Shown here: positions 1,416 to 63,450 of the stretch, piece by piece
Numbering within the stretch: position 1 is the stretch's first letter
How the letters are laid out: every line of letters begins with the position of its first letter
DNA from: Cadophora sp. MPI-SDFR-AT-0126
Lineage: Eukaryota; Ascomycota; Leotiomycetes; Helotiales; Ploettnerulaceae
NCBI GenBank assembly: GCA_020747065.1
Contig: JAGMVK010000013.1
Coordinates: forward strand, 744,001-808,000
Direction: 5' to 3'
DNA: 64,000 nucleotides
Notes under the pieces: model-generated
Databases searched by the model: none
Told to the model about the DNA's origin: nothing
Seen by the model: the letters and a program-made list of their open reading frames with translations, nothing else
Program-made: the position numbers and the translations under genes

Positions 1416-3035
1416 GGTGTTGATGATGGGAGGGACATATTTTGCTTGTATTTATAGGGTGGTTAGAGAGTGGAGAATTAGGAATGAAGTGATTGCGAAA
1501 GGTAGCCCCTGGCACAACACATTTGAGAATGATGGTTTACCATAGACAGACTTAGCTGCGACGAAGTACTCAATTTCCGGTCTTTTCTTTGGAATCCTGG
1601 CCTCGATCACATTGGCTTGTGCCGTTCTAAAGTCAGGATTTGTTGACTTGTCCGATCTCTGGTTCTCAGACAGCCTCGGATACCACCCACCCCTTCACCT
1701 TATGGGATCGCAATCTGGTAACTTCCAGGACCTGGCTACTTCACGTGAGGCTGTGGCCTAGTCATATCTCTTAACGAGGCCAGTTGTTCCAATGCCTTCG
1801 TCACTCTGCACATCCGTCAATCTTCAGATTAACTGCAGAGCCTGACCTCGCCCTTGCTCCCCATCCCCAGCATAGAAACCCCTGCCTAGTTCACAGGTGT
1901 GGTTGCGAGATTGGAGACAGTCCTCTTCAGATGAGGAGCATTGCGGACCATGATAATGTTTACAAATGCTGCGGTAGAATTCGCCTTTAAGCTTGCTTCG
2001 GTATATCTCGCCTTTAAGCTTGCCACGGTTAAACTCGCTTTAGTCGGCCGAGAGGTCTGCTTGTACTGAAGCAGTGAAGTGGAGTACGATCACCAAAGCT
2101 TCGCCAGTAACCTTACCTATAGGATACACTTGGGCGACATCAGCAGGGGTATACCGGGAGACGACGGCGTGGGTTAATTTTACACGCCCAATCCAAGCAA
2201 CGGAATTCTCGATCACGATCGTTGGAGAGCTCCTTGATATGCAAAGTCAGCCTGACTGGCCAGGCCTGCATCACATCGCACTGGCTGCAAGCTATAACCG
2301 CTGCAATATTGCTTGCCATATCCAGATGTGACCCTGTGACAATCGACATTGGTACTTTTCCTCGCCTTTCCCACCCTCAGTACCTGTGAGCATGTACCTA
2401 AGGACCGACCATTTCGAATGGAACATTTCTCGCTCCCAGCTATGACGAAGGTTGACGCAGAGACGGGAAGCCAAGCAGCTATCATCCTATCAAGAGCGTT
2501 GCTCTGGCTGCAGCTTCAAGAAGGCTGCATCTTCGGACCGGAAAGGCCTTGTCGAGAGAAGACAACAAGACAACAGAACAACAATATTGGCTTTTCTTGG
2601 CTGACTTTGGGGCCAAAACTAAGCCTCCCCGAGATTTCTTGGCTGGCTTGTGGGAGCGTGTGCCGGGGGATTGGCACGTGCGAATATGCGCAAGTTGCAT
2701 AAAGTGCGATCGTGTCGTGTCGAGCGGTCCAACCCGAGCTGAACCATCAATTAAATGTCAAGGCAAGAAAATGGATATAATCCACCGCTTTTCCTTCCTT
2801 TTCCAAATTTTCGAGAAACATTGCCACGAAGTCTATCAAAGACCAAACCCTACCACTTCTCTTTTGTAGCCTCGGAATAAAAAAGACAATTGTTATGAGT
2901 ACATACCTGACACACCTCGGGGGTACCCTCCCCTCCCCAGCAGTTTTATGGTACATTCAGTAGTGTTGACTAACAGCCCATTGAGGTTTCTCTCAGCGAG
3001 ACTCACACACATCCACCCATCTAATACCCCGAGCC
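1416..3035. other. Intergenic, 1.6 kb
   Basis: Between CFT1 and the small membrane-protein gene. Short overlapping open frames occur on both strands but none shows a recognisable domain or a consistent splice model. The last 130 bases before the next start are pyrimidine- and ACAC-rich, as in fungal promoters. A short direct repeat at 1981-2023 is listed separately. Confidence 0.5.
1981..2023. repeat. Direct repeat, two 16-bp copies
   Basis: TCGCCTTTAAGCTTGC occurs at 1981-1996 and again at 2008-2023, with 11 bases between the copies. No function is apparent; it may be a local duplication in intergenic DNA. Confidence 0.7.
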
Positions 3036-3403
3036 ATGTCGACCGACAATAGAACAAACATCATCATCGGCGTCATGACAATTGTTATTAGTTTTCTAAG
3101 TGTGGTTCTTGCATGGGCCACATGGAGGCTCACACATGAACGAAGGTCTAGAAGTCGATCGGTTCATATGAGTACGCTTCATTTCCCACTCTCTTTTCAT
3201 ATGTACATATTTCATTGAGACACATCACCGGCTTGGATTCTCTCCAGTACTGAAGCATCATGAATGTCTTCATCCAATCCAACAAAACTGACACCCTCAC
3301 TTCAGGTCCAGCAGAGGACCGTGTGCCACTGGTGAACCTTCCTCCGGCAAGACCAGGACTCGGCTACGAATTGGCGTTCCGGTTTGGAAGGACGCTTCAT
3401 TAA
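3036..3403 (+). CDS. Small single-pass membrane protein, 77 aa
   Basis: Exons are 3036-3171 and 3306-3403; the 134-nt intron has donor GTACGC, acceptor TTCAG and phase 1. The product is 77 residues. Residues about 9-29 form one hydrophobic helix (NIIIGVMTIVISFLSVVLAW), followed by an Arg/Ser-rich stretch and a C-terminal tail containing VPLVNLPPARPGLGYELAFR. The positive charge after the helix suggests an N-out, C-in orientation, but this is inference. I do not recognise a named family. The exon junction, the even codon sum and the Pro/Gly-rich tail make a real gene likely. It could be a regulatory microprotein of a membrane complex, but nothing in the sequence shows which. Confidence 0.65.
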
Positions 3404-4384
3404 TTGATGGGGAGGTCGCTTTGATTTGGTCGTAATGTATGTTCGAATAAGGGATGGAATAGATGGAGTTGGATGCTCGGTTCTGCGGAATGGCGCGAGG
3501 AGTTGCACCAGGGACGAGATCAATTGGTGGAGTCCGGACGTTGGGATATAAGAGGTCCTCATTTATGTTTGAGGTGTAGCGCTATACCATTTCTTGTATT
3601 TATCACACATCACAGATGCCAGATGCCATTGTCATGTCAAACCAAGTATCAAGCCACTTCACCTTGGCCGCCGTCATCTGCCCCAGCACTCCCTACTTTC
3701 CCAATGACTTCTCACTCTAGATTATCTGTATCCAACCCATCCGTCAAGATTCGAAGGGCAATGCTCTCAACATCAAAATGAGCAGCTTCAGCTCCACTCT
3801 CGTAGGGCAATATGGCGACTTGAGATATCATTGACAGTAGACAAAGGCAACATGAAGCACGTTGTTTATTCTAGTGATGTTGTGTGGTAAGCGAGCGAGC
3901 CCCTTTCCCCACTATTTTCGGACACTAAATCACCCATGGCCAGGTAGGCACACTTGCTCGGGAGAAAGGCAGGGATATGAAATTGCTGTGAGATTTGGGA
4001 GAAGGCGGTGGTGTTTATGACTAGGTGTAAATGTTGAATTAATTGTGTAATGGCTTCGCAGCCTAGCTCAGAGAAAGCAAATCTTGAGGAAGTTTGTGCA
4101 TTGGACTTCATCCAGGGGTTACTTGGCGATCGTTGAGTGGAAAGGGAGTTACTCAATGTGCATCAAATGACAGAGAGAGCGAGTGTGCAGTTGGTCATGT
4201 CAAAACATTCATTTCATGTGTTTCATTCCCCATATTATACATTTGGTGCCATGTCCGATCCGTTGTTTCCGTCCATTACCCATCCCAGGTCTAAAGTCAT
4301 TGATGTTGAAATTGATATTCTTGTGAATTCGGGTTCCTACTTCCAAATACGTTGTTTCTGTTGCGTCCAGATTTATTACGTTCC
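3404..4384. other. Intergenic, 1.0 kb
   Basis: This lies between two convergent genes, so it probably holds the 3' untranslated regions of the small membrane gene and of PAL1. No domain-bearing or splice-consistent frame was found. Confidence 0.5.
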
Positions 4385-5731
4385 TTATGGCTCCGTGGCA
4401 TTCTTATTTCTTCTCAAACTTCCAAAGCGTCGCTTCAATCCCTCACCGATGCGTCGTCCCGTGGTGTTGGATCGTCGCATTCCATCCCCATTATCAACGT
4501 CCAGGAAAGCACCTGCAGATGGTCTGCTAGATCCCCTGAAATCTTCGTGGTTTCCGCTGATGCTTCGTTGACGACCAGTCCCTGGACGCTGTGGTTGCAT
4601 CTCATAGGAACGACTGTCGGGAGACAAGCCGTTACGGGCACTGCTCTCCTTGTGGTCCTTCAAAGCCTTCTCAATTGAGTAAGATGGCTCTCCCTTGCCT
4701 TTCAGATCGTCTGGCAGGTATTTCTGGTTGTTGTCAGTTGTGATATTTTGAATGTGTCATATCTACGTACGACATGATCCCATCTTTTGTACGCTCCACC
4801 TGGTGCGTCTGGCTCGCGCATCAAATCAGCACCTTCCTCGTAGTCCATTTTCCGGCCAGAGAAATCTTCGAATCCTGGCGGAATAACGGACGTTCCCTGA
4901 AGTGGTACATGTTTGGTCAACGAGTCTTTGATATATTCTTTCGGTGTGGCGCGGAGAGCCTCTTCATTGGTACTCTTGACAGCTTCAACTGGCGGATATT
5001 TGACATTTGCGTTCCGGGAAATCAGTGTTGCGTCGTATGGTCCTTCGTGATGGTATAGACCTCCAATCATGGATTTGTCCAGCTTGTCAATGCTATCAGC
5101 TCCGGGAATATGCTTCTTCCTCAGATGTGGTGCCCGATTGGCAGCTTTTGACTCCTTCCGCAATTGGTCAAGTGGTCGATGAGACATGTCTCCGGGGAAT
5201 CGTTCGCCTAGAGAACCTGGACCAGGTTAGACCGGATCTCACGAGAATTTAATTTGAAAAAGACCACTCACTTCCTCTTCTACGACCGTGTCCACTGTTT
5301 GATTGTTCACCAGAGCTTTTCCGGCTTGACCCGCCTTCGTTGAAATCTCCAAAAGCTAGCTGTCTGTGTGACGGAGAATATGGGTTTGATGGATGGAAAG
5401 AGGATTTAGTCGGGCTTGCGGACGTTGGTGGGGTCGGATATGATGATACAGAGGCCTGCTTGGAAGATCTGCCAAATGCAGGGGATTTTGAGGTCGAGCT
5501 GGATCTGTTGACTGATGATGTGAAGTGTGTACCAGGTCCGGTCTCCTGGCTAGGCTCGGGGGCATTTAAAGGATCAAGGAGATACTTGGCAGCCTGGAAA
5601 TTGTCAGTAAAACATGGCAGATTAAATGTTGATCGTTGCTGCTAGCAGATATCAAGCTGAGATGCCTGTCTGACTCTGCCCGGATTTATCCAGTGAGGAC
5701 TTACCCAGTGTTTGTCTTCGTGAGACTCCAT
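4385..5731 (-). CDS. PAL1: Pal1 cell-morphology protein
   Basis: Pal1 proteins localise to endocytic and growth sites and help keep cell shape and polarity. The coding exons, in transcript order, are 5731-5705, 5593-5272, 5216-4771 and 4723-4385. The introns have GT-AG ends and phases 0, 1 and 0, and the spliced frame encodes 377 residues. The first exon gives only nine residues (MESHEDKHW). The N-terminal third is Ser/Pro-rich and probably disordered. The middle carries the conserved Pal1 core with SMIGGLYHHEGPYDATL and a KYPPVEAVKSTNEEAL stretch. The C-terminus is basic and ends in GEGLKRRFGSLRRNKNATEP, which resembles the conserved tail of fungal homologues. The length fits the family. Transcription is convergent with the gene at 3036-3403 and divergent from USB1. 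Confidence 0.92.
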
Positions 5732-7969: not shown

Positions 7970-9599
7970 TTAATGGCAGATACTGAGTATCATGGAACCA
8001 AAACTATCTACATTGCTTGCCCAAGTCGCAAGATCTGACACCATATTCTCGTCCAAGTCCTTCACATCAAGGTGACTCCATTTTCGCAGATTGCCAAATC
8101 TCAGCATTCCCGTTCCTTTCCTGCCCGACAAATATTGCGTATACTCAGATTTCCATGAATCGGCGGTATCTGCTTCCCACATTTCTTTACTGCATATCAA
8201 TGGAAGCATATCAAAGTGGCGACAGGAGGTGATATTAGGTTTGCCAACATTGAAATCCAATACTCGATCCATAAGATGCATCAGGAGCAGTGTCCTGATG
8301 ACCCAAGTATACTATATCAGCCCGATCACAGTCTGTCTGATGGCGGAACATACCTTCTACTGCTCTCTGCAAATTTCCACTCTTCCCAAGTCGGGAAGCT
8401 TCCCAATTCATCGTACGATGAGAAATCACCGTTCTCAAGGACAAGCTTACGCCCAATCTCCTAAAGTTGCGAATTAGTAAATTTCGTCGACATTTTCGAT
8501 GCACGGCCCTTTACCCCCATTGTCACTCTCGTCAAGATGCTCAACAGGTTGCAGCGTTCCTGATCGGAAGCTAAAACAAGCACATACATTGACAGAGCTT
8601 GAAGAGCCTCAAGTCGGGTATTGTTGTCGCAGCCGCCGACCTATTCAAATGTCAGAAGTATGCAGACAATAGTGACCGAGACATTTTCCCAGACTGCTTT
8701 ACCTCATCGCTCAAGGCATTCACTTCACGGAACATGGCATTTAAAACAAGGCTATTGGTCGTTGGAGTTTTTCGGAAGTACATGCCAGCGACGCTTTCGA
8801 AATTTGCAAGTGCTCCTTGACCCGCTGACCCGAGTTTATGTATAAATGGAGGGAGGTTACATTTACAGAACTCTGTCGGGTAATTTCTGATCTCAGACCA
8901 GATGTTGTTTGTCGCCGTCAATTCCCAGACTTTACAGACTTCCTTGCGATTGAGAATGTTTGGGAGCATCTCGAAGACACTGTTTCTTGTCCACCAGTGC
9001 TTCGTATGGAATGCAGTCTTCATCGCCGAATGTTCCGCTTCAGACCTTGCAGTGCCAGCTATCTCCGCATCCTCCTGCAATTCTTTGTCTAGTAAGGCGT
9101 TCTGAGTGTTCAATTCTTCAAACAGCTCTTCACTGGTGCAGCCTGGGATAGGGCCAAATGTACAGGCATCATGTAGGTCGATTGCAGACCGACGTGGTTC
9201 CGGAACTTCATTCAGAGCCTGTTCGTTCCTATCATGGGTAGCTGCAAGTGGTATCAGAACATCTCCTCCAATAGGGTTCTGAAGAAGATCCATGTTGGTG
9301 TGTGTCCCTAGAGGTAATGAAGTCTCTCGAAGCGGGTGGTCGGGATCTGCCATCGTACCTGCTGCCTCCTGGCCATGGCATGCTGTGGCGGGTACATCGG
9401 ATCTTGTTGTTTTGGTCTCCACCAGCCAAGTCCGATAGGGCACATTTGAGGTATGAGCGGCTGGACTTGAAGCCCAGTTCGATTGCTCGTACCTGCAAGC
9501 GAAACCCTTCTTCACGCATCGAGCACAGCGTGTCCTGAGGTCACATCTGGTTTTGGCATACCTGCATTCTTTACAGGACTTCTTCCGTGAGTATTCCAT
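7970..9599 (-). CDS. Zn2Cys6 transcription factor
   Basis: A fungal zinc-cluster regulator of 484 residues. Exons in transcript order are 9599-8703, 8640-8515, 8460-8354 and 8294-7970. The three introns are GT-AG in phases 0, 0 and 2. The DNA-binding motif is at the extreme N-terminus, CKECRYAKTRCDLRTRCARC followed by VKKGFAC, with spacing C-x2-C-x6-C-x5-C-x2-C-x6-C. The middle part (residues about 170-300) is helical and acidic. The last exon carries LPLICSKEMWEADTADSW, a motif I associate with the C-terminal region of one subfamily of fungal C6 proteins. The linker after the zinc cluster is short and lacks an obvious long coiled coil. The target genes are unknown, and the neighbours (USB1, a Gal80-like protein) do not define a pathway. 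Confidence 0.85.
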
Positions 9600-10037
9600 G
9601 GTATTGAGAGTTGTGGTGATGAATTGCGAAAGATTTGTCTCTTTTCAAATATGAATTGAGTACTTGAGGTTCATCTCGCTGACTAGAGCGCGAGTTGAAT
9701 ATCGCTGCTGTTTGGGTTCCTGTCTGACAAATTGGCGGGGTACGGAGTTCGACCCACAATTCTCCAAGTACAGTCAAGCGTTAATTCATGCACATCTCGC
9801 TTGCTTGTTTTTATCAACAGCTTCCCACATCGGGGTTAGTGCCAGGACTTTGTCCTATATCAAATATGTTCTTGATTGTGAATGATATGATTCGGAGTCC
9901 GAGAGCCTTCTTCCTCGGTCATATATTAAGGGCGCAAATCCGCAACGCTGTTCTTATCCTTTACCTCTCACTACTTCTGAAATCTGGTGCCTGTCTTCTT
10001 CGTCCAAAGCCAGTACTTTTAGCATATTCATCCCATC
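9600..10037. other. Divergent promoter region
   Basis: 438 bases between the C6 regulator (minus) and the Gal80-like gene (plus). A TATATTAAG sequence near 9922 could serve as a TATA element for the plus-strand gene. Nothing else was recognised. Confidence 0.4.
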
Positions 10038-22803: not shown

Positions 22804-25800
22804 ATGGCTGACGAGATCTACGACGGTGCGATCGGTATCGATCTTGGTACGTTCTCTGCATATTACCGGAGGCTGCGCGCTGTCTTTTGAAGATCAATTA
22901 TGCTGACCGTTATCCGATCAACAGGCACCACCTACTCTTGCGGTATGTTATTCGACATTGAGTCCTAACAATGAATCTACAGACGCCCTATCTACCGGAT
23001 ACTGATTGATGATAGTTGCCAACTATGAGGGAACCAACGTTGAGATCATTGCCAACGAGCAAGGTAAGCTTTTTCCGCCTTCGCATATAAGGCTCTCGAT
23101 ATAGGCTTCTGCTCCATGAAGACTTCCCAATGGGTCAGGACTAATTAGTCTGCAGGATCTTTCACCACACCTTCATTCGTCAGTTTCACAGACAAGGAGC
23201 GTTTGATCGGAGAGTCCGCAAAGAACCAGGCCGCTATGAACCCAAGAAATACTATCTTCGATATCAAGTCCGTCCGTCCGCCACTTTTGCTTGGAGAGAT
23301 GTACTAATATAGAGTGAAGGCGTCTGATCGGTCGCCGCTTCGACGATCCCACCGTGAAGAAGGAGTAGGAATAATCTAACATTATAGACAAACAAAGGCT
23401 GATGAATTGTAGCATTGAGTCTTGGCCATTTAAGGTGGTTGATCAGGATGGCTCCCCTTTCGTGGAAGTTGGTATGTCGTACTTTTCTCATATCGGTTAC
23501 CCAATATTCTCCCCACCTGCCTCATAACGTACCTTCATTGCCCGGGGTTCTATCAGAAGGCATCCAGCTTTCCGGTTTCAAACTAGTACAACTGGAGAGT
23601 TTGGCGGAAAAGACTACAGAAAACCGCAAGGTTTACAGTAAGACCTACCAGGCCACCTGGTGACGGGATTCCAAGAGCAAAGAGCCCGATTTCCACACCA
23701 AGCGGGCCAAGCACGGTGCGAACTTCAAGAAGAAATGCCTCGACAAGGTCGAGGCCAACAAGAAGTATTACCATGCGACCTGCGACGTCACCACTCGCAA
23801 TCTCAACATGTTCAACAAACACAAAGCTACTCCGCGTCACTTGCAAAAGGTGGCTGCAATTGAGTCGGTATCTGGCTCGGCTTGGGTCGCCTCGGAGATA
23901 TTCTTTTGGTCGCTTTCTTGGTCGTCTTTTAACCGACTTTCAATAAACCAGCAGCCCAAATTTGCTAATGCATCATAATAGAGTATTTGGGTGAGAATAA
24001 GGTTTTCTCGCCGCAGGAGATCTCCTCCATGGTTTTGACCAAGGTAAATTGAGTCTTCTCACACCGCGCTATTCGATGATGAGCTAACACACTACTCCCA
24101 CAGATGAAGGAGGTCGCCGAAGTCAAGTTGGGTAAGAAGGTCGCTAAGGCCGTCATCACCGTCCCCGCCTACTTCAACGACAACCAGCGTCAAGCTACTA
24201 AGGATGCTGGTGCCATTGCTGGTCTCAACGTCCTCCGTATCATCAACGAGCCTACCGCCGCCGCTATCGCATACGGCCTTGGTGCTGGAAAGTCCAACAA
24301 GGAGCGCAACGTCCTGATCTACGATCTCGGTGGTGGAACTTTCGATGTCTCCCTTCTCAACATCCAGGGTGGTGTTTTCACCGTTAAGGCCACCGCTGGA
24401 GACACACACTTGGGCGGGCAAGATTTTGATACCAACTTGCTTGATCACTTCAAAAAGGAATTCCAAAGAAAGACCAAGAAGGACTTGTCTGGCGACCCAC
24501 GTGCCTTGAGACGTCTCCGTACCGCATGTGAGCGTGCCAAGAGAACACTCTCCAATGGTGCCCAAACCACTGTCGAAATCGACTCCCTCTTCGACGGTGA
24601 GGACTTCAACGCCCAGATTACTCGTGCCCGTTTCGAGGATCTTAACTCCAAGGCATTCAATGGTACTTTGGACCCAGTTGCCCAGGTTCTCAAGGATGCC
24701 AACATCGACAAGAGCAAGGTTGATGAGATCGTTCTTGTTGGTGGTTCTACTCGTATCCCAAAGATCCAGAAGCTTTTGAGCGATTTCTTTGACGGAAAGA
24801 AGCTTGAGAAGAGCATCAACCCCGATGAGGCTGTTGCATACGGTGCAGCCGTACAAGCAGGAATTTTGTCAGGCAAGGCAACTTCAGCAGACACTGCTGA
24901 TTTGCTTTTGTTGGACGTGGTTCCTCTTTCGCTCGGTGTTGCCATGGAGGGCAATATCTTTGGTATGTACCACAACATCTCCAATGTCACAAAATATTTC
25001 AACGTCACAAAAGACGTCAATGTCACAAAAGACATCAATGTCACAAAAGATTTAGCTAACTTTGAACAGCTCCTGTTGTACCACGTGGCCAGACTGGTTA
25101 GTCCAACCGCTATATCCTATTGACATGTTACTAAATTTTGAAAGTCCCAACCATCAAGAAGAGAACCTTCACCACTGTTGCCGGTATGACGATACATCAA
25201 CATTCTCTTTTATACACTACTGACCTTCAATAGACAATCAGCAGACCGTACAATTTCCGGTCTTTCAAGCAAGATTTTTCCTGTTCCCCTGTTTTACAAG
25301 CCTCATATGCTAACAAATTTCCAGGGAGAGCGCGTCAACTGCGAGGATAACACTTCTCTTGGAGAGTTTACCTTGGCTCCGTGAGTTTCTACCCTCCTCA
25401 GAACTCAGTTCAATTGCTGATACATGCCAGAATCCCCCCAATGAAAGCTGGAGATGCTGTTCTTGAGGTCGTTTTCGAAGTCGACGTCAATGGTATCCTG
25501 AAGGTTACTGCCACTGAGAAGACTTCAGGACGTAGTGCCAACATCACCATCTCTAACTCTGTTGGCAAGCTTTCCTCGGGTGAAATCGAGAGCATGATTA
25601 ACGGTAAGTAATTTTGGTATTTGTGCTAAGATCTTTACTAATTTCGACTAGATGCCGAGAAGTTCAAGAACAGTGATGAGGCATTCAGCAAGAAATTCGA
25701 GGCAAGACAACAACTTGAGTCATACATCTCAAGAGTTGAAGAGATCGTTTCCGACCCAACTATGTCCCTCAAGCTCAAGCGTGGAACCAAGGACAAGATT

Positions 25801-52004: not shown

Positions 52005-53417
52005 TGCAACCTGTAAGTGGCACTCATATTCTAGGCGATTGTGCGAAATTAACATTTTTAGGTTGCCGTGGTTCAACGGGCTCTGAAGATGTTCGAAGGA
52101 GAGCTGGATACTAATGACATCGCTATGGAATTTATGATGGAGAAGTCTTACCTTAATTTGGATATCGACTGGGTTAAATTGGACCCTTCCCGCTTGCTAC
52201 AAGTTCTGATCAACTTGACTACGAATGCCATCAAGTTTACCCACGGTCAGGACAAGCGAACCATCATTGTGAGTGTTGGTGCTAGCAAGGAACGCCCAGG
52301 TGGCGAGATCTCAGACGTGTCCTATTTCCCAAGTCGGTCAAAGCGAAAAGATCTGACTACAGAGGATCCGGAATGGGGAACTGGCGATGAGATATACCTT
52401 CATTTTGCTGTTCAGGATACAGGACGAGGATTGGATGAGAAGGAAAAGACGCTTTTGTTCCAGCGCTTCAGTCAAGCATCTCCTCGTACCCACGTACAAT
52501 ATGGAGGCTCCGGTCTAGGGCTCTTCATTTCGAGAGAATTGACGGAACTACAAGGAGGCGAGATTGGCGTATCGTCTGAACGGGGCGTTGGCAGTACGTT
52601 TGCTTTTTACATCAAAGCACGTAAAGTGGATGGCTTTGCAGAAGATACACCGATAGCCACCACCATCAGTGCCCTCCGAAGAAATTCCTCCAATTCCGCT
52701 GTCACGATCGAGAGTAGGAAGAATTCTTCTGGTAAAGCAATCCACCGATCGCATACCACAGGTCATCGGCGTCGTTCGACAATTACTCCGCCAACCTCAT
52801 CACCGCCACCACTACCAGTGCCTGGCATTACAATAGATCACTCTAAACTGAAGATTCTCATTGTTGAAGACAACCTTGCCAATCAGAAGGTCTTGCAGAA
52901 ATCGCTCAAAAACCAAGGTTTCATGACCGAGCTCGCTAATCATGGTGGCGAAGCACTTGAGGTTCTCAAGACATCTAATTTCTGGACTGGCCGAGAAAAG
53001 GATGGGATAGAATTGGCAGTCATCTTGATGGACTTAGAGGTTCGTAACTTATCATGAAGGGTTAATAGTGCTTGCTGACACGGAAAGATGCCGGTAATGG
53101 ATGGCCTCACATGTACTCGAAAAATCAGAGAATATGAGGCAGACGGAACCATAGTGAACCATGTGCCGACTATAGCAGTGACAGCAAATGCTCGTCTGGA
53201 GCAAATCGACACAGCGCTTGCTGCTGGAATGGTATGTAGCTCTGTTCTCGTCGATTCCCGAAGTCTAACACGCCGTTAGGACAATGTTGTTTCGAAACCA
53301 TTTCAAATACCACAATTGATTCCTAAAATCTACGAACTCGTCGCCAGAAGCAAACCAACATCGACAGAAGCGCCACCTCAAACGGCTCATAGAGAAACAG
53401 AGGCAGGGCCATCATAG
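52005..53417 (+). pseudogene. 5'-truncated hybrid histidine kinase (ATPase plus receiver)
   Basis: Only the C-terminal half of a hybrid sensor kinase is present. A mini-exon 52005-52012 (VQP) joins 52062-53039, 53088-53231 and 53280-53417 in phase. The ATPase domain is intact: N box in LLQVLINLTTNAIKFTHG, G1 in AVQDTGRGLDEKEKTLLF, and G2 in GGSGLGLFISRELTELQGGE. A Ser/Pro-rich linker leads to a receiver domain (LKILIVEDNLANQKVLQKSL, ILMDLEMPVMDGL with the phospho-acceptor Asp, IAVTANA, SKPFQIP). Upstream, where the sensor and the HisKA phospho-His region should be, a stop-ridden stretch at about 51930-51985 and then the stop of the coiled-coil gene leave no room for them. From the ATG at 52089 a 410-residue protein could still be made. 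It is either a decayed gene or a functional fragment. Confidence 0.75.
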
Positions 53418-58048: not shown

Positions 58049-61000
58049 TCACCAATTGAGTGTCGTCTCTCTCGCCCTCTCATCCGGTTCCCCCTCCGTC
58101 ACACCACGCGTCCCACACCTGCACTTTGCAGTTCTGCGCTGCAAATCAAACAATACCTCTTTCACTACGACTCGTTTGTCTTCAGCTACTAATCTTAGAT
58201 CTGCCGCTTCATTCTCCGCCTGACTGGAATCCCAAGCTGCAAGTCCTTCCTCCTCGATCTTCATTACCCACTGAGCGACATGCCCGGTTAGAAGACTGTC
58301 CCAAAGACCCTCGCGTCGAGGTGCAGAGAGTAGCAGCCGAATAGCCTCACGGCGAAGTCCGCGGTCCCGGCATTTGGTCGCTACCATGTAGAGAGGGTGA
58401 ATGATCCCGAGACTTGTTGAGAAAGATGCTCTTACGTGAACAAAGCTATTTGGATAACTCGTCGGGGTTGCAGCCGTTGTTTCCAGTCTCGGTTGTGGAG
58501 TTCCCGTATGAATGTATTTCTCTTGTTGACTGACTTGGCCGTGAGAAGTCGGACTAAGGACACTTGATTGTTGCATGCTCGTCTTAGAACTCGTCTTAGA
58601 TCCTTGATCCGTATCGCTGCGATATATCTTACGACCTATGGATGTCTTTCCGTCAAACAAGATCTCTTTAGCAAGATCCACGATTGTTTTGAAGATGATG
58701 TAAGAAGTATCGAACACCGTCTCGCTTATTGACAAGGAGTCGATCAGAACTGCGATACAGAATTTGTTCATCTTGAGGATGTCGCGTCTTATCGTCTCAA
58801 AACTTGAGACTCCAGGTTTCTGGCGGGTCTCCAAGAGTTCTTCGAAAGTATATGACTTATCAAAAACTTGTCCCTTGATCTTGAAGTCATGTACAGAATG
58901 ACGGAGACCTTCGGAGACCTCAGAGCCGGGGTTGATAGCCTCGTTGAATTGTGCCATAAGTGTTAGCAGACGATCCAAAAGATGCTCCGTCTCTTTTGTA
59001 ATGGTGGTCTCCTCAGGAAGCAACGTATCCAATGCTGCTGTATCAAATGATGACTGTGGACGGAACGGGTTCGTAGTCGACCCGTCAATCCAGAGAGACA
59101 GTATGTCAGGCAAGCAGAAAGCATCCACGCAGGACTGTATATGGACGAAAAGCCTGAAAAATATCTGTATAATGTCAATCTCAATCTCATTGTCAGTAAT
59201 ATGATCAAGTCGTGGTTGGCGGATGATACGAAGACCATGATTGAGTTGAATAAGGGCCGCCTTGTGGTCGCCAATGAAACACTGGAAACAAACAAACAAT
59301 GCGATGGACATGAGAGTTTTCCGATGCGACCAGGGTTTTTGGCTTCCAAGGCTTTGTCGCAATACTTCGAGAGCCTTTCCGTTATGTTTTAATGCAAAGT
59401 CATAATGTGGAGCGTGTTGTCCTCCTCCCAAGGTCTCATACAAGCCTCCCATGGCCAGAACAGCATGTCGTAGCGAGGGGTTCTGGTGACATTCTTCTAG
59501 GATGTTACCAGTCCAGACTTCCGATTCCGCAAATCCGAAAATGTCTCTGGATGTGAAGGTCTGAAAGCTCCCAAAATATCGCCATTCCTGCGAGTCAAAT
59601 GGAAGTCGAGAGAGGTCATGTATTCCAGGAACAAGTGGAATTATTGTTCCATATGTCTTCTTTCCTGAAAGGGCACCAATTGAAGCGTCCAATGCTGATC
59701 TACTTTGCGGATATCCATCACATAGTCGACCTGACCGTTCACACTTGGTGCATTGTGGTCTCGTCTCATCACATTTTACTCGCCGCGTTCTGTAGAAGTA
59801 AGTATCGCGGCAATGCAACAAGATTTGTTGAAGACATGGCACTTACTTGCAGTTTAGACACCCCGTTTTTATTTTGACTTTGTTGGTGGATTTCCCGCGT
59901 TTTGTGGCATTCGAGGTGTTGTTGACTCTGGCTCGCTTGAGGTCGCTTGCTGGGGAGGTTGTCTCATAACTGGAGAGCGGGTCGCTATCTTGTCGTATCT
60001 CGTTAAGGAGTTCGGTCCCGGAGGGTTCTTTATCTGGGGCTACCCAGTTCCTTGGGTCGGATATGAATTGAAGGGGTGTCCCTTCGTCTGGATTGCTCTG
60101 AGCCTCTTCATCACAACTTTCAGTCTCAGAAGAGCGAAAGTCTTTCTTAGGTGAGATTTGCATGAACAGTAGGTTGCTTTTATCGGTTACTGGCTCATCT
60201 TTCAAATATTCCGACTTCCAACTTGGCACTTCCTGGAACTCTTCTTTGATGGCAACGTTCTCTGTCTTTCCAATGCACAGTGAAACATCGAAATTCATGT
60301 GCTCGTCTTGGGCAGTATCTCTAGTTGCATGGCTCAAATTTGTTCCACTTATGGAATCATGTACTGAAAGTATATCAGTGCTTCTGATATTCGGGCCAGT
60401 GGCATATCCAATAAAAGAGCAAGCAGGGTGATCCGGTAACATGTCCCATATCGGCATCGGAACGGACAGAATCATCAGAGTAGAGTAGCTTGGGAAAACA
60501 GCTTCGACTTTTACCCATTTCGCCAATAAGGGAAATTTGTCAAGCCAACGAGCGCATTGCCGAGCGTCCAGCTGTTGGTCTTCTTCCAATTGAAGCGTTA
60601 TCAAGACGTGCGGAATTTTGTAAGATCCATCGGAAGACAAGGAGGACAGAGAAGTCGAGCTTGAGCTATTGTCATCCAAATCTAGGTCCATCGCGTCAAC
60701 ATAAGTCGAGGTATCATCCTCGTCGGATGTTGCAGCAGAGGGTGTATCAGGTAGTGATATCAACGGATTCCTTCTACACAACTCAATTCCGGGTGCCTTG
60801 CAGTCTTTCGTATTGATCCAATGTATAGGTGTGACGCACCATTCCATTGGTATGCCTTCACGGCCCTTTTTTGCCTCTTTGAGCTTCAATCGAAACAAGA
60901 TCTCGGTATGCAAAGATGCGGCCGAGAATGATGGTTTCCTCATCCAATCGCGAAGTACATCGACGAGAGTATTCGTTAAGGAATGTTCGCCAGGTGGGGG

Positions 61001-61501
61001 AGCTCTTCTCTCAAAGCCGCAAGCCGCAATGGTCTCCATCACTGCGAATTGAGACGTTGTTGCTGAGCTCGCTGCTGCACATGTATCCAGCAGAATAAGC
61101 ACATCCGACTTTGCTGTTCCGAAAAGACCTTGGATAGCAGACCAGTCCACGAATGGAGAGGCTGGATTTTGTCCAAAAACCCATTCGGCCTGCCGAGCGC
61201 TGTTCATTCTCCCATGTCCAGCATAATACAGGACAAAGAGGTTTTTATCATTGCCGTATGCTTGAATGAAATCAAGTGTCTTCCTCATCAAGTCCCAATG
61301 TGAGTTCACGCCCGGAATAAGGAAAACATTGGTTTGGAAGCCGTAACCTTGCAGGATATTGTTGAGAGCACCGAGTTCTTCTTGAACGCTAAGTCCATCA
61401 TCTTCCCAACGTATAAGACAGGCATTGACCGTTTCATAACGGGACTTTCCACGATTCGGGAAAGCTCTCTTCGCAGCCTGACCGCAGTTAGGACCTGGCA
61501 T
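58049..61501 (-). CDS. Caspase-like peptidase fused to a Zn2Cys6 transcription factor
   Basis: Exons in transcript order are 61501-59847 and 59789-58049; one 57-nt GT-AG intron (donor GTAAGT, acceptor CTACAG), phase 2; product 1131 residues. Residues about 20-245 are a caspase-like (peptidase C14 fold) domain: VNACLIRWEDDGLSVQEELG, LFVLYYAGHG with His96, and DVLILLDTCAAASSAT with Cys141. Residues about 295-370 are a beta-rich region (HVLITLQLEEDQQLDARQCA, DMLPDHPACSFIGYATG) that I know as a follower of fungal caspase-like domains. After an acidic linker comes the zinc cluster, cysteines 548, 551, 558, 565, 568 and 575 (GCLNCKTRRVKCDETRPQCT, KCERSGRLCDGY), then a fungal-specific transcription-factor region to the end. 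The intron splits the zinc cluster, so the DNA-binding domain needs the same frame as the peptidase. Cleavage-regulated transcription is an inference. An internal start (Met402 or Met447) could make the regulator alone. Confidence 0.88.
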
Positions 61502-63450
61502 GCCTTGAAACTGGGGGACGGATCATTACATTGTTTACATCTTCTGAGAAAGCAGCTAGATCCTGGTGATGAAAGCCGGCCCGAGATGTGTCATGAGAGC
61601 AGAACTGAGTCTTTTGGCCTTCAGAGAGGACATAGAAGGGGGGTTGCGACATGACTGAGGGTAGCTGTGACACTTACAGCCTCGTGAGGTTGACTTTCAC
61701 GACTGCCAGTAAAGAAAAGCGATCCTGACGGAGCCAGCAAGGATGGTCGAATGCTCGCAATATGAATTACTTTGCAAATTCCAACGGCGATGGGATCCGT
61801 GTATTTTGATCGAAAATTGCATTGTGTCATGCTGTAGCTGGGCGGTATATGGGCTGGGTTGTGCAGCCTGCATGATGCATCCCCCGGGCTCCCTTCTGGT
61901 CACCGATGTGGCTGCTCAGCCGCCTTGTTCTGGGTCCGAGGGGGAAGCATTGGCGAATCGTGCCCCAATTAAAGGAAGGGTTCTAAAAAAAGTTCGATCA
62001 GGAAGAATCGTATGCGGAGGAAGATTTGTTGACTGATAGAAGTTTAATCCCGTTACTGAGAGGTGGCTGCCCGCCTAAGTGTCTTGGCGGATCTCTGTAG
62101 GTACTGAACAGATGTGACTTCCTATTCAAGTCAGACTTCACACCCACACTCAAACTCAAATTACGCATCTCCTTCATCAAGAACCCTCCAACCTTCAAAG
62201 ATGAACGCCTCAATGTTATTGAATCTGTCTGTCTGGTCTATGTGCATTGTCTAACCATCCCGATCGATTAATCCAAGCAATCATCCACCTATCTATCCGT
62301 CATTCCTCTCACACACTCAGTAACCGAAGCACTGAAGCCCACGATAATATGCTATGCTTGTGAGAAGTAGGATATTGCGATTACATGCTTGCCCTTTCGA
62401 TCTGATTTTGGTTGGTCTGCAATCTGAGACCCAATTGTGAGAAATGAGCATGGAAATGAAAATGAAAATATATGATGTGTGCAAATTTACAGTTCCCAGT
62501 CCCCGCCTCAATTGCAGGCCCCAGGCCAGCCTCTGTCCCAAGTCGAGATACCAGGGCCAATATGGAAAGTGTGGTCATGAGCCTCGTTTTATGTTGTCGA
62601 TGATACCCAAGCAATTAAGCTCACGATATTGAGAGGGACGGACGTTCGTTGTCGGCTTGTTGGTGACTTGGCTTAAAGATATGGAATCTGAGATGCAGTG
62701 GACTGTGCTTGTTTGCTGATCGTGTGTTTGCTGATCGTGTAAGTATTGTTCAAAATAGAAGGGCGCTCTTTCGATTTGATGTGAAAGAAAAGTCGTTATC
62801 GTCGTGAAATATGCACTTTTGAATGGATGCAGATATACCACTCAAATATTAGGCATGATGCATTGCACTTCCTTTCGTCCTAGCCATTGAGCACTGCTAA
62901 ATTCAATCTCGAACTAGTGCTTGTGATGAATGTAGTTGTACGGCATTGTGAGCTAGATGAAGAGAAGTGGGATGAACCGACACTCAGTGAGTCGATTCCA
63001 AGACAATGCAGTCCATGTCGAGGTTGAAATTTGTGAATTTCGAATTCTTCAGACAAGGACTGAACTGTCATATGGGAATCATGTCTGTCTGGTTTGCCGT
63101 ATTCCAGATAAATGGATGATAAGCTAGGAATTAGACTGATCTCAAGTTGTTCGTTCCTGTTCCCTCTTGGGAGAAAATGCTGAGGCATTGGTATATGATA
63201 TGTGCCTGGATATTGATACAGTTGAAACCAAAAATCCCAAAGGGAAAGCAACGTAACGTGGAGGGAGATCTGTACTTCGGGAGGACGTGAGATAGTGTGC
63301 TGGGGGTGTTTTTGTGCGTTGGGTTGATGGAGTTGTGTCGGGCTAGAGTAGTCGCAGAATGCTGTACAGTACACACGAAATCGAAGTCGAAATCGAAGTC
63401 CTTCAGACCGTCAATCTCTCGAAACTGAGAGATAACCAAGGTCCTCCGCC
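61502..63450. other. Intergenic, 1.95 kb
   Basis: Promoter region of the caspase-like/Zn2Cys6 gene on the left and the 3' region of the partial gene on the right. Frames up to 164 codons (62880-63374, minus) have no domain features and low-complexity composition. A 15-bp tandem duplication lies at 62711-62740. Confidence 0.4.
62711..62740. repeat. Perfect tandem duplication of 15 bp
   Basis: GTTTGCTGATCGTGT occurs twice head to tail (62711-62725 and 62726-62740). Probably a recent replication-slippage event in intergenic DNA. Confidence 0.8.

Follow-up and report, generated by a model that had tools for sequence, protein, structure and literature searches.

In fungi, protease heads of the CHAT and S8 types carried by WD40/TPR/ANK receptors control gasdermins, as described in the available excerpts of PMC12881547 and PMC10197012, and the accessible part of PMC12258605 proposes integrated decoys for fungal NLRs and describes zinc fingers at their C-termini. 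In bacteria, PMC9729208 presents Craspase (gRAMP with TPR-CHAT) as separate proteins activated by RNA, the substrate of which, Csx30, is the partner of the regulator RpoE. Here we describe a gene of Cadophora sp. MPI-SDFR-AT-0126 (Helotiales), located in a 64,000-nucleotide stretch of contig JAGMVK010000013.1 (positions 744,001 to 808,000; hereafter the window), which is predicted to join a caspase-type protease and a captured Zn2Cys6 regulator in a single protein. The initial annotation of the window knew of no description of such an architecture, and we likewise found no caspase-transcription-factor fusion among the best matches in open-licence PMC text. None is described in the excerpts of PMC12881547, PMC10197012 and PMC12258605, the words caspase, peptidase and protease are absent from the review of fungal transcription factors PMC5415576, and Neurospora CZT-1, judging from the excerpt of PMC4065252, is a different protein. 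The window protein would be a modular fungal protease with a type of tail not described in the open-licence literature searched.

The gene comprises three exons on the minus strand (61652-61530, 61477-59847 and 59789-58049) totalling 1164 codons, and encodes, in this order, a caspase fold with an intact catalytic dyad, an acidic segment, a small alpha/beta domain, a linker, a Zn2Cys6 cluster and a regulator domain. The same fusion is found end to end in P0001, an annotated 1169-residue protein of Cadophora gregata (58% identity over the alignment), and its first part in P0002, a 641-residue metagenome protein from the Joint Genome Institute. The features of the window gene are as follows.

61530 to 61652, minus strand: exon 1, residues 1-41 (MSQPPFYVLSEGQKTQFCSHDTSRAGFHHQDLAAFSEDVNN), with homologous N-termini in P0001 and P0002.
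61478 to 61529, minus strand: intron 1, 52 nucleotides (GTAATG...CTAAC...CAG), with the formerly proposed Met1 at 61501 inside it; the junction reads DVNN/AAKRAFPN, against DVNN/AARRAFPN in P0001.
59847 to 61477, minus strand: exon 2, encoding the caspase domain, acidic segment, alpha/beta domain, linker and zinc cysteines 1-2 (from translation and Pfam).
60767 to 61450, minus strand: caspase-like domain, residues 51-278.
61214 to 61216, minus strand: predicted catalytic His129 (YYAGHG), invariant in alignments of 47 and 9 rows.
61079 to 61081, minus strand: predicted catalytic Cys174 (LLDTC), with an Asp two residues upstream; both are invariant in the same two alignments.
60620 to 60766, minus strand: acidic segment, residues 279-327, probably disordered (predicted local distance difference test, pLDDT, below 50 at model residues 241-273).
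60389 to 60619, minus strand: small alpha/beta domain, residues 328-404, placed by a structure model and identical at 71/77 positions in C. gregata.
59867 to 60388, minus strand: linker, residues 405-578, with D-x-[KE]-R-x-R at 553-558 (from alignment, coding bias and a low-confidence stretch in the P0001 model).
59790 to 59846, minus strand: intron 2, 57 nucleotides (GTAAGT...CTACAG), phase 2, within the zinc cluster, at the same codon and phase as in a standalone paralogue.
58049 to 59789, minus strand: exon 3, encoding zinc cysteines 3-6, the regulator domain and the stop.
59696 to 59866, minus strand: Zn2Cys6 cluster, residues 579-616, split by intron 2 (Zn_clus, E 2.7e-8).
59096 to 59572, minus strand: Fungal_trans_2 match, residues 658-816 (E 1.9e-6).

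The initial annotation had proposed an open minus-strand exon carrying YYAGHG and LLDTCAAAS, followed by a 57-nucleotide intron (59846-59790) and an exon at 59789-58049, with a peptidase and a zinc-cluster regulator in one reading frame. The sequence bears this out, as exon 2 stays open all the way from the caspase domain to within the zinc cluster and a single spliced protein (in its 1131-residue model) matches Peptidase_C14 at 23.0 bits (cut-off 21.4), Zn_clus at 34.2 (21) and Fungal_trans_2 at 27.5 (21). The start of the protein had to be moved. P0001 and P0002 begin with MSQPPF or MSEPSF...HDTSRAG.HHQDLAAFS, about 40 residues that were missing from the earlier model and that the window encodes at 61652-61530. 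Once this homologous exon 1 is placed, the Met at 61501 falls in intron 1 and was rejected as a start; the protein begins at 61652 and is 1164 residues long, and the catalytic residues formerly numbered His96 and Cys141 become His129 and Cys174. P0002 seems to read through intron 1, like the output of an intron-blind gene caller, and stops at GCNNCK, exactly where intron 2 would start. In the two linker pieces, codon usage favours the frame of the gene (0.14 and 0.12, the other five frames reaching 0.01 at most), and in the acidic plus alpha/beta piece that frame is only marginally best (-0.00, the next being -0.02). The fusion is, by these sequence measures, real at the level of the gene model. 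It would also be more than a chance join, because the whole architecture recurs in C. gregata, where 36 of 76 residues of the first linker piece are identical.

Between the two Cadophora species, identity is unevenly distributed along the protein. It amounts to 210/237 in the caspase domain and 71/77 in the alpha/beta domain, but to 36/76 and 27/90 aligned residues in the two linker pieces, and to 21/38 in the zinc cluster, 179/424 in the middle and 70/114 at the C-terminus of the regulator. Overall, the heads are identical at 345/404 positions (85%) and the fused regulators at 270/576 (47%), compared to 600/665 (90%) for a standalone regulator of the same two species, the zinc cluster of which is unchanged (38/38). 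In P0001, C14 scores above cut-off, Zn_clus (18.3) and Fungal_trans_2 (16.0) lie below the cut-off of 21, and the six cysteines are in place. Head identity exceeds tail identity in related proteins as well (72-81% versus 33-52% for homeobox tails, 70-90% versus 53-76% for C2, 92% versus 80% for TPR and 78% versus 75% for Myb, from the first 12 pairs per group), though less sharply than in the window pair (86% versus 45% in the same cut); in L018-type proteins the first 450 residues are 84% identical and the remainder 60%.

From profile, dyad and fold, the head is predicted to be a caspase-type (Peptidase C14) cysteine protease. Trimmed to the domain, it matches Peptidase_C14 at 27.3 bits, and nine of nine trimmed heads match the family at E up to 0.01. 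The Gly-His, Asp and Cys are invariant across the 47-row head alignment, and of the 24 DNA-binding-type heads checked (32 are so labelled), 23 retain both His and Cys, L012 being without the His. The structure model of the head adopts the caspase-hemoglobinase fold, and its best Foldseek match is MALT1, at 15% identity. The region after the caspase domain is present, as the initial annotation had it, but rather than beta-rich it is modelled as a small alpha/beta domain with the element order b-a-a-b-b-a-b. The model of full-length P0001 is poor (pLDDT 55, a score that its shallow alignment may lower), and was used for domain order and likely disorder only. Searches of PDB sequences gave no strong match: MALT1 was absent at E up to 1 and Metacaspase-4 matched weakly (E 0.7-0.9); at the N-terminus, no Pro-rich or zinc-finger prodomain of the type I metacaspase kind is visible by eye. 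Two identities were rejected. A CHAT protease has no match in Pfam at E up to 1, and a fungal NLR is not supported by the three Pfam families found at that threshold, neither NACHT nor NB-ARC being among them; no Ig or death domain was found in the window protein in the same search. YYAGHG and the Asp two residues before the catalytic Cys are also what we take to be motifs of MALT1. By analogy with MALT1 and metacaspases, the invariant Asp suggests, on an S1-pocket argument, cleavage after Arg or Lys and not after Asp.

The six-cysteine cluster and the regulator domain (Zn_clus and Fungal_trans_2, both above cut-off) predict that the tail is a Zn2Cys6 transcription factor; basic stretches adjoin the cluster. 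The same genome retains a standalone regulator on contig C19, 38% identical over the main match. Its zinc cluster carries a phase-2 intron at the same codon, with a junction that agrees with the published protein P0017. Because this codon and phase are shared, the zinc-cluster intron is probably older than the fusion. The initial annotation was right about its position and phase (it splits a Lys codon immediately past the second zinc cysteine) and less fortunate in viewing it as a lock made by the fusion; as a fusion-specific device it was rejected, being inherited from the standalone regulator. A tree built from 39 regulators pairs the window tail with the C. gregata tail as sisters (support 100), on very long end branches of 1.75 and 1.94, compared to 0.00 for P0017, 0.026 for the unspliced C19 frame and 0.064 for the C. 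gregata standalone protein P0020, lengths that call for long-branch caution. Sequence comparison indicates that the C-terminal half derives by capture from a helotialean regulator that was duplicated, the original remaining in the genome as a standalone gene.

Searching the genome with the head returned 42 matches, grouped by eye into about 26 caspase-like loci. A second caspase-Zn2Cys6 gene lies on contig C38 (L043; three exons, 1328 codons), in which C14 and Zn_clus pass their cut-offs and Pfam gives no match to Fungal_trans; the published protein P0132 is identical to this model from residue 481 on and confirms its last splice. A fused relative from the Mollisiaceae, P0118, exceeds the cut-offs for C14, Zn_clus and Fungal_trans_2, and P0124 from Hyaloscypha combines Zn_clus with a head 49% identical to that of the second fusion. 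Homologues are thus not always two separate genes, P0001 and P0118 both being single fused proteins in the annotations of others. Further fungal heads precede other DNA-binding domains: HMG plus Zn2Cys6 plus Fungal_trans in P0081, Myb in P0048, C2H2 in P0073, and a homeodomain with rhodanese in P0091, P0094, P0096 and P0101, which pass the Pfam cut-off for both domains. P0081 is encoded by an uninterrupted frame of 1298 codons, running from the caspase head through HMG and Zn2Cys6, on a contig of 3978 nucleotides, which fits a complementary DNA (cDNA) and hence a real fused mRNA in that relative. Tails of other kinds include HET (P0051 and, in this genome, L040), WD40 (P0003), dynamin (P0057), beta-lactamase-like (P0072) and GMC oxidoreductase (L038, also in this genome) domains, and those that we take to be TPR, ankyrin and C2 from precomputed Pfam accessions. 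The head of the WD40 protein P0003 is 81% identical to that of the window (257/316).

In a tree of 87 heads, P0003 is nearest to the group of the window gene, P0001 and P0002 (support 84), and the four stand together with a support of 89. Zn2Cys6 tails occupy four places, namely the window clade, the C38 gene, L005 (below the Pfam cut-off) and P0081; the C38 gene adjoins L018, on which no Zn2Cys6 tail was seen. Passing between DNA-binding and other tails requires at least 10 changes, on labels assigned partly by eye. This tree is a quick one, built from query-anchored BLAST joins with long branches and Shimodaira-Hasegawa-like approximate likelihood-ratio test (SH-aLRT) supports only; its joins at CZT2 and L037 are unsure, 32 of its 87 rows are labelled DNA-binding, and 13 rows were left out (L015, L022, L023, L026, L027, L030, L039, L040, L041, P0107, P0112, P0114 and P0115). 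Peptidase_C14 falls below cut-off in P0081 (20.7), P0048 (17.7) and P0007 (20.8), and was not matched at E up to 0.01 in P0073, P0091, P0094, P0096 and P0101, nor at E up to 0.1 in P0124. Heads with weak C14 scores were recognised by their His and Cys motifs together with an identity of 38-54% to most of the window head or, for P0124, of 49% to the second fusion. Among the tails, the zinc cluster of L005 scores 15.7 bits (cut-off 21), and the C2H2 of L012 and Myb of L007 are also below cut-off. The C2H2 labels of P0007, P0117, P0037 and P0042 rest on a match under the cut-off, on the name given at source or on an accession interpreted by eye, and the Myb label of P0049 from likeness to P0048. 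Of 16 rows labelled homeobox, 4 pass Pfam, P0098 and P0100 are below cut-off, P0090 has rhodanese only, and the others were labelled by precomputed accession or clade. With labels of this kind, fungi seem to have fused caspase heads to DNA-binding domains of several kinds on repeated occasions.

Several relatives of the head deserve mention in their own right. Heads with homeodomain-rhodanese tails (P0091, P0093, P0094, P0096, P0101 and relatives) occur in several genera, among them Trichoderma, Metarhizium, Claviceps and Daldinia; some are entered at source as tyrosine phosphatase, and no paper on caspase-homeodomain-rhodanese proteins was among the best matches in open-licence PMC text. Locus L006 (C12:812746-816135, minus strand) holds a caspase-like frame with C2H2 fingers 3' of it in another frame of the same strand, an unproven fusion; the fingers are 89% identical to a copy at C23:2198068 that resembles Crz1, so that a second Crz1-like DNA-binding domain seems to adjoin a caspase head in this genome. 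In the region of L005 and L044 (C33:1370012-1375800), a caspase-like frame runs into a possible Zn2Cys6 cluster, below the Pfam cut-off as noted; L044, downstream of L005, has by eye a bZIP-like basic stretch and no Pfam match. In L038 (C4:1657900-1667890, frame 1715-4963; 1083 codons), the oxidoreductase domain is joined to the second portion of a caspase-like head whose catalytic positions are altered (YYAGAS, LLDCAHTS). L015 (C27:10607-13816), on a 32.7-kb contig, nearly duplicates L004, the caspase gene with a TPR tail on C37, but is broken and contains several stops.

We tentatively favour the view, to which we would give somewhat less than an even chance, that the protein combines a protease head with a regulatory tail of an exchangeable kind, the captured regulator serving here as sensor or bait. 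One gene would make one protein, with the caspase-type head and small alpha/beta domain at the N-terminus and the captured Zn2Cys6 regulator at the C-terminus. The head would be the common output module and would cut a substrate in trans, as the protease heads of fungal WD40/TPR/ANK receptors do on gasdermins, and the tail would be the interchangeable input. Tethered by a linker of about 175 residues, the regulator could act as an integrated decoy of the regulator or as a chromatin or ligand sensor, and disturbance of this domain would switch the protease on. We prefer a common output with variable input because a similar head is found on a WD40 protein, because WD40, TPR and ANK tails keep it company, because the standalone original is retained, and because the tail evolves fast. 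As in an integrated decoy, the tail duplicates a host gene that also persists on its own (the C19 paralogue, with the same intron), and the fused tails form one clade.

A number of observations weigh against this sensor-tail reading. DNA-binding tails recur in several classes, for which a pure bait model has no need, and tails such as HET, dynamin and oxidoreductase resemble payloads more than they do sensors. Within the regulator of the window gene, conservation is highest in the zinc cluster, which is what a continued role of DNA binding would lead one to expect, and the rapid divergence of the tail could equally reflect relaxed constraint after duplication. The protein does not sit in an NLR, having no nucleotide-binding domain of the NLR kind in Pfam at E up to 1. 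Several of the tail examples, P0003 among them, are metagenome gene calls with a start inside the head, and P0057 is without the His part. P0132 (848 residues), the published model of the strain's second fusion, begins inside the linker and is regulator-only. Finally, no protein of the window locus was among the matches listed in protein database searches with the head, one of which scored the 8000 best candidates of 622-1979 residues; like the form of P0132, this counts against the released-regulator reading too. The direction of control between head and tail is one that we infer, the sensor-tail and released-regulator readings being close.

In the released-regulator reading, a tentative but genuine contender, the protein would be a protease-gated transcription factor, the head cutting the linker in cis or within a dimer (candidate site D-x-[KE]-R-x-R, 553-558) and freeing the regulator. 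This would suit the presence, within a single head family, of DNA-binding tails from several classes (homeodomain, Myb, C2H2, HMG and, at four positions in the tree, one of them below the Pfam cut-off, Zn2Cys6), the retention of the dyad in nearly all DNA-binding-type heads checked (23/24), a linker of about 175 residues that is modelled with low confidence in P0001, and a basic D-x-[KE]-R-x-R stretch common to the window gene, P0001 and P0002. It would also suit the window zinc cluster, which is better kept than the rest of the regulator (28/38 identical to the C. gregata standalone regulator, versus 154/403 in the middle region). A precedent is Craspase, which, in the available text of PMC9729208, cleaves Csx30 bound to the sigma factor RpoE. 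Against it stand the 81% identical head with a WD40 tail, the far faster divergence of the fused regulator (47%) than of the head or the standalone regulator, the poorly conserved second linker piece, and the zinc cluster of C. gregata, with 21/38 identity to that of the window and below-cut-off scores for both regulator families. A wider form of this reading strikes us as possible but doubtful: filamentous fungi would have built self-contained protease-gated transcription factors repeatedly and independently, by placing the same caspase-type head before unrelated DNA-binding domains (Zn2Cys6, homeodomain, Myb, C2H2 including Crz1-like, and HMG), and a death-type protease cutting its own tether would convert a signal of cell death or of non-self into gene expression in a single step.

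We consider it unlikely that the locus makes two products, with an internal start in exon 2 (Met435 or Met480) yielding a regulator-only protein and the fusion rare or absent. P0132, equal to the second-fusion model from its start in the linker at residue 481 onward, has just such a form, and the strain's published annotation seems to be without the full window fusion, because no window-locus protein was among the best candidates scored. However, regulator-only forms from Met435 (730 residues) or Met480 (685 residues) fit the length range searched and were likewise not found, P0001 and P0118 were annotated by others as single fused proteins, the linker is partly conserved and shows in-frame coding bias, and the frame of P0081 on its cDNA-like contig argues for a fused message. 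That the regulator half merely steers the protease to chromatin or the nucleus, where an active head would cut DNA-bound substrates, is quite improbable: recurrent DNA-binding tails of unrelated folds and the basic stretches beside the zinc cluster would agree with it, but WD40, C2, HET and dynamin tails are left unexplained. Least probable of all is a chance read-through or a decaying fusion without function, which the long fused-regulator end branches (1.75 and 1.94, versus 0.00 to 0.06 for the standalone regulators of the same two species) might suggest, but which fits poorly with a regulator half of about 580 codons open in two species, six cysteines and a dyad kept, and a head 85% identical.

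Elsewhere in the window, by eye, an open frame on the minus strand (8655-9644) starts with another Zn2Cys6-like cluster (CKECRYAKTRCDLRTRCARCVKKGFAC), a plus-strand frame at 24083-25120 is Hsp70-like and has two long open frames antisense to it, and a plus-strand frame at 52062-53054 resembles the ATPase part of a histidine kinase.

On sequence grounds, the recurrent fusions suggest that proteases of the cell-death type and gene regulators are linked in a way that has so far gone unstudied. If either leading mechanism is true, fungi would possess circuits made of a single protein, with mutual control between a caspase-type protease and a gene regulator. Natural comparisons are available within the class, one head with different tails and one regulator with and without a head, and fungal caspase-like proteins would be placed in a setting, nuclear or tied to non-self recognition, that lends itself to tests.

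Compared to the gasdermin-controlling receptors, as far as the excerpts describe them, the window protein shares an N-terminal protease head and a variable C-terminal tail, and relatives of its head bear WD40, TPR and ankyrin tails; it differs in matching Peptidase_C14 and not CHAT, in its transcription-factor tail, and in having no nucleotide-binding domain. Like the integrated decoys of plant NLRs, which the available part of PMC12258605 proposes for fungi, its tail is a host-gene duplicate with the original kept, and evolves fast while the rest is conserved, but the protein is without an NLR backbone and has a protease in place of the nucleotide-binding domain. With Craspase, Csx30 and RpoE (PMC9729208) it shares the linking of a caspase-like protease to a transcription regulator; there, separate bacterial proteins are activated by RNA and cut the regulator's partner, whereas here a single fungal gene encodes the fusion. 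With MALT1 and metacaspases it has in common the caspase fold, and also YYAGHG and the Asp two residues before the catalytic Cys; it is only distantly similar to MALT1 in sequence, and carries neither of the Ig and death domains searched for. Finally, the helotialean Zn2Cys6/Fungal_trans_2 regulators (P0008, P0010-P0015, P0017, P0020 and others) share its zinc cluster and regulator domain, and the C19 copy its intron; these standalone members, of about 620-730 residues, are without a caspase head, and the two Cadophora copies have remained 90% identical.

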